Assembly (NCBI GenBank): GCA_902786855.1 | Contig: CADAEH010000002.1 | Span: 186,001 to 250,000, forward strand | Direction: 5' to 3' | Length of the DNA stretch: 64,000 bases | DNA from: an uncultured Eubacteriales bacterium | Lineage (GTDB): Bacteria > Bacillota > Clostridia > Peptostreptococcales > Anaerovoracaceae | In this document: one piece after another, positions 36,930 through 40,604 of the stretch | Position numbering within the stretch: the stretch's first letter is position 1 | How the letters are laid out: every line of letters begins with the position of its first letter | Position numbers and translations under genes: made by a program | The notes under the pieces: model-generated | Told to the model about the DNA's origin: nothing | The model's database searches: none | Seen by the model: only the letters and a program-made list of their open reading frames with translations

Positions 36930-38360
36930 TTATATCTCCTGTCTTGCAGCTGCCAGCATAAGAGCGCATTCTATCCGCTTGCGCTGGAGCTCGCAGCCGA
37001 ATCTGTATACTTTATTGATATCGCCGTTTGAATGATAATTATTGGCGGCGCAGCCTCCTGCGCAATACAGTTTGGCCCAGCACCCTTTGCATTCATCTCT
37101 TGTGTATAGGTTATTATTTCCACTGAAAATGTCAACTGTTTCCGGGTGTGTTATTCCTTCGTAGATATTGCCGACGATCATATCGTCATCACCTACGAAC
37201 TGATGACATGGATACAGGTCTCCCGAAGGTGTCACAGCGAGGTATTCAGTAGCAACGCCACATCCTGATACCCTTTTATATATACATGGTCCGCCGGTAA
37301 GATCAACTGTATAGTGATAGAAACTAAACCCTTCACCGGCTTTTTCCCGTCTGAGCATCTCAAAAGCCAGCTTTTCGTACTCCTCAAAAAGCTGCGGAAG
37401 ATCATTTTCATGTAAAGCATAAGGTGCTGCAGGATCTGATACAACAGGTTCTATGGACGTTTCGGTAAAACCAAGGTCAGCCATGGCAAGCACATCCCGG
37501 GAAAAATCCTTGTTGTACGCTGTATAAGTGCCCCGCATGTAGTATTCGTGTGAACGTCTTTCGGCACTCTCATCGGTCCTTGATCTGACAAGCGCCCTGA
37601 AATTATCTATGATGCTGTCATATGTTCCGCTGCCTGACTTGCTGTGCCGCATCCTGTCGTGAGTCTCTCTGCGGCCATCCATACTGAGGACCACATTGCC
37701 CATCTCTCTGTCCGTGAAGTCTATTACATCATCGTCTATGAGGACACCGTTAGTCGTTAAAGTGAAATTGAAAACCTTGTCGTATTTTTTTTCAAGCTCA
37801 CGGCCGTATCTCACAAGCTCCTTGCATACTTCCCAGTTGATGAGTGGCTCTCCTCCGAAGAAATCTACCTCAAGATGTCTCCTTGAACCTGAATTCTCCA
37901 CAAGATAGTCCAATGCTCTTTTGCCTGTCTCAAGACTCATTATGCCGCTTTTGCCTGAATAGTCACCCTTTCCGGCAAAGCAGTATTCACAATCCATATT
38001 GCATCCGTGAGCAACGTGAAGACATATCGCCTTGAGAACAGACTGCTTGATTTTGAGTTCTCCGGCAGCCTCTTCATAAGGATCCTCTGACCAGAGGAGA
38101 CCTTCAGCATGGAGCTCAGCAAGATCATCAAAGATCTCTTCAGCGTCATCCACAGGTATATCATGATCCAGAGCGACTTTCGAAGCCGCTTCAGACCTGA
38201 TATTTACATCAGAAAAGATGCCTGCAGCATCTGCTCCACTGCAGAGCTCCCGATCGAGGATAGAAATCATATCATATGCGGCATCGTCCACGGTATGGAC
38301 GGAAGCGCTGTTTGCATCCACTACGATGCAGTATCCGTTAAGTTTGTACTGATGTATCAT
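36930..38360 (-). CDS. scfB: SCIFF peptide maturase, radical SAM/SPASM thioether-forming enzyme
   Basis: A 476-residue radical SAM enzyme that forms a thioether bridge in the SCIFF ranthipeptide. The start MIHQYKLNGY is the family's usual N-terminus. Residues 1-100 form the RiPP recognition region. The radical SAM cluster ligands are Cys120, Cys124 and Cys127 (CNMDCEYC), with GGEPL at 169-173. The SPASM auxiliary-cluster cysteines lie at 359, 367, 385, 424, 427, 433, 437 and 456. All expected cysteines are present, so the enzyme looks functional. It lies downstream of the precursor gene across a terminator. No Shine-Dalgarno site is visible before the ATG, suggesting low expression. Confidence 0.95.
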   Translation of the reverse strand: MIHQYKLNGYCIVVDANSASVHTVDDAAYDMISILDRELCSGADAAGIFSDVNIRSEAASKVALDHDIPVDDAEEIFDDLAELHAEGLLWSEDPYEEAAGELKIKQSVLKAICLHVAHGCNMDCEYCFAGKGDYSGKSGIMSLETGKRALDYLVENSGSRRHLEVDFFGGEPLINWEVCKELVRYGRELEKKYDKVFNFTLTTNGVLIDDDVIDFTDREMGNVVLSMDGRRETHDRMRHSKSGSGTYDSIIDNFRALVRSRTDESAERRSHEYYMRGTYTAYNKDFSRDVLAMADLGFTETSIEPVVSDPAAPYALHENDLPQLFEEYEKLAFEMLRREKAGEGFSFYHYTVDLTGGPCIYKRVSGCGVATEYLAVTPSGDLYPCHQFVGDDDMIVGNIYEGITHPETVDIFSGNNNLYTRDECKGCWAKLYCAGGCAANNYHSNGDINKVYRFGCELQRKRIECALMLAAARQEI

Positions 38361-38371
38361 CTATGTATCAC

Positions 38372-38405
38372 TAAAAAAGAGGCGCTGCTCTTTTAAGCAG
38401 CGCCC
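38372..38405 (-). terminator. Read-through terminator between SCIFF precursor and maturase
   Basis: The stem GGCGCTGCT / AGCAGCGCC has a six-base loop and is followed on the minus strand by TCTTTTTTAG. It lies 11 bases after the precursor stop and ends 11 bases before the maturase ATG. Such a site would keep the peptide in large excess over the enzyme. Confidence 0.9.
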
Positions 38406-38415
38406 CTGTATGATG

Positions 38416-38565
38416 CTACTTCTCCTTCTTCTGCTCGCAGTGCTGATTAGCAACGCTGCAGGAAGTCTTACTTGCGGACTGGCAGGATGTCTGACACTCG
38501 CCGCAGCCGCCTGTAACGCGGGACTTAGCCATATCTCTTGTTGTGATGGTTCTGATTCTCTTCAT
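38416..38565 (-). CDS. scfA: SCIFF ranthipeptide precursor, variant with five cysteines
   Basis: A 49-residue peptide. The leader MKRIRTITTRDMAKSRVTGG precedes the core GCGECQTSCQSASKTSCSVA and tail NQHCEQKKEK. The family (six cysteines in forty-five residues) normally reads CGECQTSCQSACKTSCT. Here cysteines are at 21, 24, 28, 36 and 43, while position 32 is Ser and position 37 is Ser. In characterised SCIFF peptides the thioether joins Cys32 to Thr37, so both partners appear changed. AGGAGGAAATTCACG precedes the ATG, giving strong translation, and a consensus promoter lies at 38622-38650. The neighbouring maturase confirms identity. The role of mature SCIFF is poorly known; quorum-type signalling has been proposed. 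Confidence 0.95.
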   Translation of the reverse strand: MKRIRTITTRDMAKSRVTGGCGECQTSCQSASKTSCSVANQHCEQKKEK

Positions 38566-38661: not shown

Positions 38662-39447
38662 TTACAACATCTCAGGCTTAGGAGCTGCTGTGATCCTGTA
38701 TGTGAACACGGCTTCCTTCTTCATGTCTCTGTTGACTATCCTTATCCTGTCGGCTTTTCCGTCAGTACTGTCAGCTTTTACCAGGATATCGGCCTGCTCG
38801 CCTGCAAGGATGTCGCGGTATGCATCCTGGCCAGGTGCCGGAGGCAGATCCCAGTTCCTTGTGTCAGGATTGTATGCTGTGTGGTAGAAACGGATCTTTC
38901 CGACAGTCACATCAAAGTGATAGTTACAGTCGACATTGACGCTTGGCAGAAGACATTCGCTCTGCTTGTCGCCAAGCTGTCCCCTCAGAGTAACAGCAGC
39001 CGTCGCTGTCTTATATATAAGACCTCTGTACTCTTTTCGATTGTTGATCGCCTCAGACACTATCATTACTTCGCATGGAGCATTATTGATGACGTATTCT
39101 GTTGTCGACCCTATGCTGCTCTGGTTATCGTCTTTGGATGACTTGGTCATAATGATCAGGTCCGCTCCTGTATCGCGTGCCGCCCTGATTATCTTGGCAC
39201 CGGCCGAGCCAGTCGCAGCCTTAGTCAACACTTTATAACCGCCGATAGACGATTTTATAACTTCGAGCTTTTCATCAAGCGCACTGAGTGCAGCTGCTTC
39301 AGCTTCTGATCTTAAGCTATAGTTCTGGCTGTCATCCACCATCACAAGTACTATATCCGCTTCGTCAGGTGTGTAATGCTTTGTGACATAGTGGAGTGCC
39401 TTGAGACTTCTGTCTGTTTCTTCAAGTGGCAGGAGTATTCTTTTCAT
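38662..39447 (-). CDS. Universal stress protein with an added C-terminal domain
   Basis: A 261-residue protein. The N-terminal UspA domain (about 1-135) begins MKRILLPLEETDRSLKAL and ends with the nucleotide-binding IIMTKSSKDDNQSSIGSTTEYVINNAPCEVMIV; the G-x-x-x-S/T-type loop is partly kept (GSTTEYV). A further 120 residues follow (about 140-261), apparently beta-rich, with the phrase FYHTAYNPDTRNWDLPPAPGQDAYRDILAG; I know no family for this part. The start at MKRILL is chosen because GGAGG lies six bases upstream; a start 12 codons earlier would include that site. USPs usually end near residue 150, so this is a lengthened form. Confidence 0.8.
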   Translation of the reverse strand: MKRILLPLEETDRSLKALHYVTKHYTPDEADIVLVMVDDSQNYSLRSEAEAAALSALDEKLEVIKSSIGGYKVLTKAATGSAGAKIIRAARDTGADLIIMTKSSKDDNQSSIGSTTEYVINNAPCEVMIVSEAINNRKEYRGLIYKTATAAVTLRGQLGDKQSECLLPSVNVDCNYHFDVTVGKIRFYHTAYNPDTRNWDLPPAPGQDAYRDILAGEQADILVKADSTDGKADRIRIVNRDMKKEAVFTYRITAAPKPEML

Positions 39448-39521
39448 GCCTTCCTCCGTATCTGATATATCTATTACGGCCATGCCGTTGCTTCATACAG
39501 AACAAGTATACTACAAATCAG

Positions 39522-40604
39522 CTATTTTAGGAACTTCTTGTTAAGCGTCATGATGAATATTTCAAGTGCCGCATACAAAACAAGATAATCTTCGTCATAC
39601 GACAGTATAAGGTCATTTTCGCAGTAGCCGGCAGATTCGAAAAGGATATTGGGCGATCCCCCTATCACAGCTTTGAGCTCTCCGTCCATCTCAACCATGT
39701 AGTTGCATGAGATATTAGCTCTCATGCAGGCCGGGAAGATCGTTACTGTGAACTTTCCCGCATCGGTATCCGCAATGAAACCTTCCCGTTTGCCTTCCTT
39801 GTACCTTGAGATATCTCCGAAATGCTTTCCGTCAGCGTACATATCATATCCGGCACTGTCTATGACCACACCCTTTCCGTTGAAAGAGCGGGGCATGACG
39901 GAAGCCATCTCGTTTCCATCAGTATCCAGCACTCTGGCTTCAAACGGATGATAGCTGTTTTTTACTTCGAGGACATCAGCTCCATCAGAATTCCGGAAAA
40001 AACCTTCGGAGGAATTATGATAATAAAATTCTGAAACATCAAGCTCAGGAGGGATCTCCGGTTCCCTGCCTGCAGCCATGGCTTCTATCATTTCAGCCAG
40101 ATGCCTGATCATGACAACAGAAGCCAGCTTTAACCCGGCAAATTTTGCGTAATGTTCAGGAGTGACCTCAGTCTCTTTTGGATCTACGAAGCTGCTGAAC
40201 CTGTATTCATCCTCTTCTTTTCGAATAATGTTGTCTACAAGCGTCAGGTGCTTTATGTCCAGATCACCTTTTTTGCGTGATATGACCACGCAGTCCTTGT
40301 AAGCACTCGGACCGAATACTATGCTGTCTCCGTCAAAACCCTTGTGCTGAGCGATCCATGGTCTTCCGAGTGGTGTCTGCATGTTTTCAAGCCTTCTGTA
40401 AAGATCGGCTATATCGATATCAGTCCTTATGACCTTTTCATACAGACTTCTGTCGTTAAACCTTCCGAGTCCACGGTTCCAGAAAATTCCAAAAGCCAGC
40501 AGAAGGATCACTCCTCCCATTATGTATCTGCCGACCGAAATGGCCAGCAAAGCTGTTATTATAGTCAGCACTCCCAGCAGAGTGACTGCCCTGTCCTGTT
40601 TCAT
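39522..40604 (-). CDS. Uncharacterised membrane-anchored protein
   Basis: A 360-residue protein of no family I can name with confidence. Two short membrane helices at the N-terminus (about 8-42) are followed by a large cytoplasmic or external domain. The middle part (about 60-170) is mixed helix and strand. The last 150 residues read like a twelve-stranded barrel of the LURP/Tubby type, with repeated D-G-N/K turns (VLDTDGNEMASV, DMYADGKHFGDISRYKEGKREGFIADTDAGKF). That resemblance is weak and only by pattern. It is 15 bases upstream of the next gene start region and probably co-transcribed with the phosphohexomutase. Confidence 0.6.
   Translation of the reverse strand: MKQDRAVTLLGVLTIITALLAISVGRYIMGGVILLLAFGIFWNRGLGRFNDRSLYEKVIRTDIDIADLYRRLENMQTPLGRPWIAQHKGFDGDSIVFGPSAYKDCVVISRKKGDLDIKHLTLVDNIIRKEEDEYRFSSFVDPKETEVTPEHYAKFAGLKLASVVMIRHLAEMIEAMAAGREPEIPPELDVSEFYYHNSSEGFFRNSDGADVLEVKNSYHPFEARVLDTDGNEMASVMPRSFNGKGVVIDSAGYDMYADGKHFGDISRYKEGKREGFIADTDAGKFTVTIFPACMRANISCNYMVEMDGELKAVIGGSPNILFESAGYCENDLILSYDEDYLVLYAALEIFIMTLNKKFLK

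Follow-up and report, generated by a model that had tools for sequence, protein, structure and literature searches.

How a SCIFF maturase deals with a precursor that lacks the cysteine from which the described crosslink starts is the question raised by a locus on the minus strand of the window, the 64,000-nucleotide stretch of DNA from an uncultured Eubacteriales bacterium that was analyzed here. In the review passages concerned, the SCIFF peptides CteA and Tte1186a are assigned a single thioether from Cys32, which was linked to Thr37 in vitro in both cases, whereas co-expression of CteA in E. coli led to a link between Cys32 and the gamma carbon of Thr34 (PMC8326336, PMC8172795). The original prediction had treated Cys32-Thr37 as the known link, which holds for the in vitro reaction but not for the co-expression result. 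Having noted the lack of both residues in the window peptide, it proposed that the maturase encoded next door either makes a different bridge, acts on another peptide or no longer acts. The precursor gene and its three informative codons are located as follows:

38416..38565, minus strand: SCIFF precursor peptide of the ScfA type, 49 aa, Ser32/Ser37 subtype (TIGR03973 and sequence)
38470..38472, minus strand: codon 32, AGT (Ser), site of the described donor Cys32 (codon readout)
38464..38466, minus strand: codon 34, ACT (Thr), acceptor reported from E. coli co-expression (codon readout and review passages)
38455..38457, minus strand: codon 37, AGC (Ser), site of the in vitro acceptor Thr37 (codon readout)

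The translation of this open reading frame, MKRIRTITTRDMAKSRVTGGCGECQTSCQSASKTSCSVANQHCEQKKEK, scores 76.2 bits against the TIGR03973 (SCIFF) profile, above the curated cut-off of 50, and thus belongs to the family; the same profile gave no match in 14 control genomes. Residue numbers follow those of CteA, for which the review passages describe a fragment ending at Cys21 and count Cys32 as the fourth cysteine of the family. In this numbering, the window peptide has its first cysteine at position 21, as does CteA, followed by Cys24, Cys28, Cys36 and Cys43, and it retains Thr34. The codon readout bears out the predicted 49-residue precursor with five cysteines and serine at positions 32 and 37. 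The peptide accordingly departs from the six cysteines in about 45 residues that gave SCIFF its name, and its AGT codon provides no Cys32 for a link to either Thr37 or Thr34; a maturase gene of the ScfB type does lie next to it on the same strand. A second, canonical SCIFF in the source genome was considered and rejected, as TIGR03973 gave one match in total in an assembly that is 87% complete, a rejection that holds for the assembled part.

The maturase gene follows the end of the peptide gene after 55 bases:

36930..38360, minus strand: SCIFF maturase of the ScfB type, radical SAM and SPASM, 476 aa (TIGR03974, 666 bits; best PDB match CteB, 5wgg/5why)
37524..37526, minus strand: maturase codon 279, Tyr, overrepresented among Ser32 maturases, whereas most others have Phe (alignment columns)
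37254..37256, minus strand: maturase codon 369, Val, a hallmark of Ser32 maturases, two residues C-terminal to Cys367 of the SPASM motif (alignment columns)
38378..38407, minus strand: terminator-like hairpin, 13 pairs followed by a T run, inside the peptide-maturase gap (terminator scan and RNA fold)

Its product lies well above the TIGR03974 (SCIFF maturase) cut-off of 425 bits, reaches 258.6 bits against NF047865 (PapB), below the cut-off of 340, and matches CteB with an E value of 5.3e-152. All cysteines of the radical SAM motif CX3CX2C (C120, C124 and C127) and of the SPASM domain (C367, C385, C424, C427, C433, C437 and C456) are in place, confirming that the neighboring maturase is intact. 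The window pair thus belongs to the same precursor and maturase families as CteA and CteB of Clostridium thermocellum, which produce the SCIFF ranthipeptide thermocellin, but it has Ser32 and Ser37 in place of Cys32 and Thr37, and Val369 where CteB has Ser after the GCG motif. It likewise shares the SCIFF family with Tte1186a/Tte1186 of Caldanaerobacter subterraneus but has neither of the two residues joined, according to the review passages, in the in vitro thioether of Tte1186a. The freyrasin system PapA/PapB uses ranthipeptide radical SAM/SPASM chemistry as well, although with another precursor and with Asp or Glu acceptors, PapB taking Cys-Xn-Asp substrates with n = 0-6 in the part of the study concerned (PMC9413430).

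The hairpin in the gap has an RNA fold z of -5.28, and the 3.7 kb around the SCIFF locus contain four terminator-like sites, compared to 2.1 expected in shuffles. Its position would fit a high peptide and low maturase output and may point to attenuation of the maturase. Directly upstream of the peptide gene, 38662-39483 on the minus strand encodes a 273-aa protein with a Usp domain (PF00582) at residues 13-142 and a C-terminal half without match, and for the 360-aa protein encoded by 39522-40604 on the same strand neither Pfam nor NCBIfam gave a match at E 0.001.

The alignment with related genomes suggested by the original prediction shows that Ser32 extends throughout the genus of the source organism. 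A SCIFF peptide is found in 44 of its 48 genomes, all of which have Ser32; one of them combines it with Ala37 and the other 43 with Ser37. The remaining four genomes lack a match to the maturase as well as to the peptide. In the class as a whole, SCIFF was detected in 322 of 391 sampled genomes. Within the source family, 243 genomes bear SCIFF, and our reading covered 154 of them; from the rest of the class sample (314 genomes, the 322 minus eight of the source family) it covered 198. We took the best-scoring 30 per search, most low scorers, and a single representative of each genus or family among the remainder. A codon-blind profile survey of 347 genomes, 40 of which come from the source genus as the most heavily sampled one, yielded Cys32/Thr37 in 185, Cys32/Gly37 in 99, Ser32/Ser37 in 61, and Ser32/Ala37 and Cys32/Ala37 in one each. 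Five further genomes outside this table (G063 and four of the source genus) agree with it. Ser32 occurs in 19 of the 230 genera read, namely the source genus and 18 others, and 17 of the 19 belong to the source family. A pattern scan of named genomes, whose loci have AGY at codon 32 by construction, retrieved at least 120 loci, comprising at least 117 true SCIFFs and three chance matches; at least 112 of the true ones have Ser37 and at least five Ala37, with Thr37 or Gly37 in none of those listed. The carriers include many rumen or gut assemblies as well as Eubacterium brachy, Mobilibacterium timonense, Baileyella intestinalis (L172) and Mogibacterium sp. Judged by these sequences, the Ser32 SCIFF is a common and widespread subtype rather than the private loss of one genome. 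The original prediction had regarded a combined loss of donor and acceptor as unusual: the donor Cys32 is indeed absent, but with Ser32 in 19 genera and a large maturase clade the loss is no rare, isolated event, and Gly37 is found in many SCIFFs that keep Cys32. We found no description of SCIFF precursors without Cys32 in the open-licence PMC literature searched. A study of pig isolates states, in the part concerned, a six-cysteine SCIFF motif for all its precursors, and it also describes B. intestinalis, whose genome has Ser32 in our scan.

The residues of the core differ sharply in their freedom to vary. For residue counts, we used 488 peptide copies from 484 loci; per-genome counts are taken from the 347 genomes, as the copies include some genomes twice. 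Four of the 488 loci examined yielded no peptide (L098 and the chance matches L125, L167 and L189). Cys21, Cys24, Cys28 and Cys43 are never substituted (with two copies truncated or unaligned at position 43), Thr34 is invariant in 488/488 copies, and Cys36 is changed to Ser in only two copies, both from one genus and both also with Ser32. The predicted loss of the acceptor therefore applies to Thr37, which is Ser here, but not to Thr34. Position 32 is Ser in 199 copies and Cys in all others, never Ala, Gly or any other residue. It is strictly paired with position 37: among the 347 genomes, Ser32 occurs with Ser or Ala37 only (62) and Cys32 with Thr, Gly or Ala37 only (285), and the combinations Ser32/Thr37, Ser32/Gly37 and Cys32/Ser37 are absent from the 488 copies. 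Ala37 accounts for seven of the 199 Ser32 copies. All 62 Ser32 genomes of the codon-blind set use AGY codons, one step from the TGY codons of Cys, which fits few origins of Ser32 from TGY. Replacement of Cys32 by a newly gained cysteine was rejected as an explanation: among the 199 Ser32 copies, 43 have Cys13 and 27 have Cys46, but 127 have no gained cysteine, and Cys13 is found in 33 of 103 Cys32/Gly37 copies as well.

Several loci deviate from the usual arrangement. The two copies with a changed Cys36 (L091 and L401) are left with four canonical cysteines plus one in the leader. Tandem double SCIFF units, all Cys32/Gly37, are found at L037, L371, L373 and L392, forming one open frame in L037. 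Two assemblies, genome G231 (L489 and L490) and isolate Pal332_bin16 (L157 and L186), each contain two SCIFF-maturase pairs, all with Ser32 and Val369, which reflect either duplication or a mixed assembly. At L501 (genome G027), a peptide with a deviating C-terminus is accompanied by a maturase match in two parts with an internal stop, due to either decay or an assembly error.

Both genes bear the marks of purifying selection. Over 435 pairs of genus members, the SCIFF core has a mean pS of 0.387 and a pN of 0.0021, and residues 19-45 are invariant in 31 genus members save for one Ala37, with one copy cut at the end. The maturase shows a pN/pS of 0.167 over the same number of pairs. We therefore take both genes to be in use, and the nearly frozen peptide core together with the constraint on the enzyme makes it unlikely that the maturase no longer acts. 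The two genes share one strand in 408/408 copies.

To what extent the enzymes changed along with their substrates can be judged from their phylogeny. The 438 maturase matches were reduced to 404 near-complete sequences and, after removal of identical ones, to 372. In the tree of these 372, an inner branch with a support of 100 emerges from a Cys32/Thr37 background and splits into a Cys32/Gly37 and a Ser32 group; the window maturase lies among enzymes labeled Mogibacterium, so the source genome probably belongs to Anaerovoracaceae. The Cys32/Gly37 SCIFFs thus constitute a sister group, with a leader similar to that of the window peptide, but they keep Cys32 and have Gly37 where the window peptide has Ser at both positions. 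A model-based tree of 77 of the 372 maturases, from which the four most telling columns were omitted, agrees, separating the main Ser32 group by a branch with a support of 88 and the Cys32/Thr37 enzymes with 97. On the tree of 372, position 32 needs two changes and position 37 eight. With so few changes at position 32 (one or two), its perfect pairing with position 37 may be inherited history and not repeated co-adaptation.

A second origin would be implied by a small lineage of three Ser32 loci whose maturases fall inside the Gly37 group (support 99 in the tree of 77). They come from two Oscillospiraceae assemblies, Pal332_bin16 (L157 and L186) and isolate Th196P3bin147 (L166), which, to guess from their names, stem from insect gut. 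Outside the coupled columns, their profiles weakly favor kinship to the Gly37 group, with log-odds of 22 to 42 compared to >100 for true members; four columns place them with the Gly37 group, but three columns place them with the Ser32 group. AU tests do not reject a single Ser32 clade (p 0.716, the constrained tree outscoring the free one by 19.3 log units), also in a smaller set of 41 (p 0.402), and in that set they do not reject the Gly37 grouping of the small lineage either (p 0.668, constrained tree 7.3 better). We therefore do not regard the three loci as a demonstrated second origin, as the tests reject neither scenario; Ser32 appears to have arisen once or twice.

The clearest enzyme change associated with Ser32 affects residue 369. 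Val369 is present in 140/140 Ser32 maturases (137/137 of the main group and 3/3 of the small lineage), compared to 4/231 Cys32 enzymes. The 87 aligned Cys32/Gly37 maturases have Ser in 82, Ala in four and Cys in one case at this position, along with Phe at residue 459 in 81/81 aligned sequences, and the 144 Cys32/Thr37 maturases have Ala in 101, Ser in 33, Cys in six and Val in four, so that Val369 is not strictly tied to Ser32. Tyr279 follows a similar but looser trend, being found in 134/137 enzymes of the main group and 3/3 of the small lineage, as against 14/87 Gly37 and 28/144 Thr37 enzymes. The cluster-binding cysteines are retained throughout: in every one of the three maturase groups, those of the radical SAM motif and the SPASM domain are 93-100% conserved. 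None of the 137 enzymes of the main Ser32 group lacks a radical SAM cysteine or any SPASM cysteine from 367 to 437, and 96% of them have Cys456 near the C-terminus, compared to 93-94% in the other groups. SPASM domains include the motif CX9-15GX4C. Cys367 and Cys385 fit this motif, and we take Cys367 to be a putative ligand of Aux I, which would place Val369 next to this cluster, a placement based on the motif and not on coordinates. If the small lineage had a second origin, Val369 would be convergent; with a single origin, it would be one shared change. According to the part of the CteB study concerned, the Aux I cluster has an open site that is bound by a substrate cysteine (PMC6231123). It is conceivable that a bulkier residue 369 could change which cysteine binds there.

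With Cys32 absent and the maturase intact, the Cys32-Thr37 link cannot form at this locus, and a different bridge appears to be the most likely of the three options proposed originally, at about even odds. Our main reading, to which we assign a probability of roughly 0.5, is that the window encodes a working, co-adapted SCIFF subtype in which Ser has taken the place of Cys32, and Ser or Ala that of the residue at position 37. ScfB would still use its N-terminal domain to bind the leader and would still perform radical chemistry on the peptide core, and the thioether, if made, would have to start at a different cysteine. As a first guess, it may connect Cys28 or Cys36 to the invariant Thr34; in the two genomes in which Cys36 is Ser as well, Cys36 cannot be the donor. 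An unlikely alternative, albeit one that deserves consideration, is that the Cys32 link is not part of the core chemistry and that all ScfB enzymes share a modification involving Cys21, Cys24, Cys28, Cys36, Cys43 and Thr34, with the Cys32 thioether being an extra or an in vitro outcome that the Ser32 branch dropped. In its favor, nearly all of the 488 copies, those with Ser32 among them, retain these five cysteines and Thr34, while positions 32 and 37 vary, and it is consistent with the lack of Thr37 in 162/347 genomes, 99 of them Cys32/Gly37, and with the disagreement of the review passages about the acceptor. However, the same passages give the Cys32 thioether as the single one in CteA and Tte1186a, and both Val369 and the distinct grouping of the maturases point to an enzyme that changed along with position 32.

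The absence of the described donor combined with the joint retention of both genes could also mean that the Ser32 maturase stopped crosslinking and was retained to serve its peptide in some other way, such as binding, chaperoning or a different radical reaction, for instance epimerization. We consider this quite unlikely, since the conservation of the radical SAM and SPASM cysteines argues for cluster chemistry that is still in use. That Ser32 itself reacts, by forming an oxygen-linked bridge or through oxidation of Ser32 or Ser37, seems improbable. We know of no ScfB-like enzyme that forms an oxygen link or oxidizes Ser, the uniform AGY codons suggest that inheritance from a single ancestor may partly account for the persistence of Ser, and the Ala37 copies indicate that an oxygen at position 37 is not needed. 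On the other hand, the restriction of position 32 to Cys or Ser is in line with such chemistry, and ether formation by a radical SAM enzyme has a precedent in DarE, which produces darobactin, according to the part of the literature concerned (PMC9055067). It is very improbable that the SCIFF-like reading frame is a relic and that the maturase has a different peptide as its substrate, given the contrast between pN and pS in its core. A survey of open reading frames of 25-95 aa with at least three cysteines in the fetched stretches around 89 Ser32 loci yielded no support for this idea: 173 of the 194 recurrent small Cys-rich frames besides SCIFF overlap the SCIFF or maturase gene, and 15 of the remaining 21, inspected by eye, look like shadows of neighboring genes. 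Finally, sequencing error was rejected, and the chance that Ser32 reflects such an error or a decayed gene is practically negligible, as it recurs in all 44 SCIFF-bearing genus members and at least 117 scan loci.

More tentatively than for the main reading, we suggest that the Ser32/Ser37 pairs may represent a third SCIFF branch with a new crosslink topology, based on another donor cysteine or an oxygen link, in which the paired loss at positions 32 and 37 would have been accompanied by an enzyme change beside the putative Aux I cluster, possibly twice. The physiological SCIFF product is itself unsettled, with the review passages naming Thr37 as the acceptor in vitro but Thr34 upon co-expression in E. 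coli. The existence of a large natural group without Cys32 casts doubt on the view, expressed in the relevant part of a paper on rebuilding the family, that all clear ScfA homologs are apparently functionally equivalent (PMC5300114). The Ser32 pairs, including those of the named strains of E. brachy, M. timonense and B. intestinalis, constitute ready-made sets of donor-less substrates and their enzymes for asking which residues matter.
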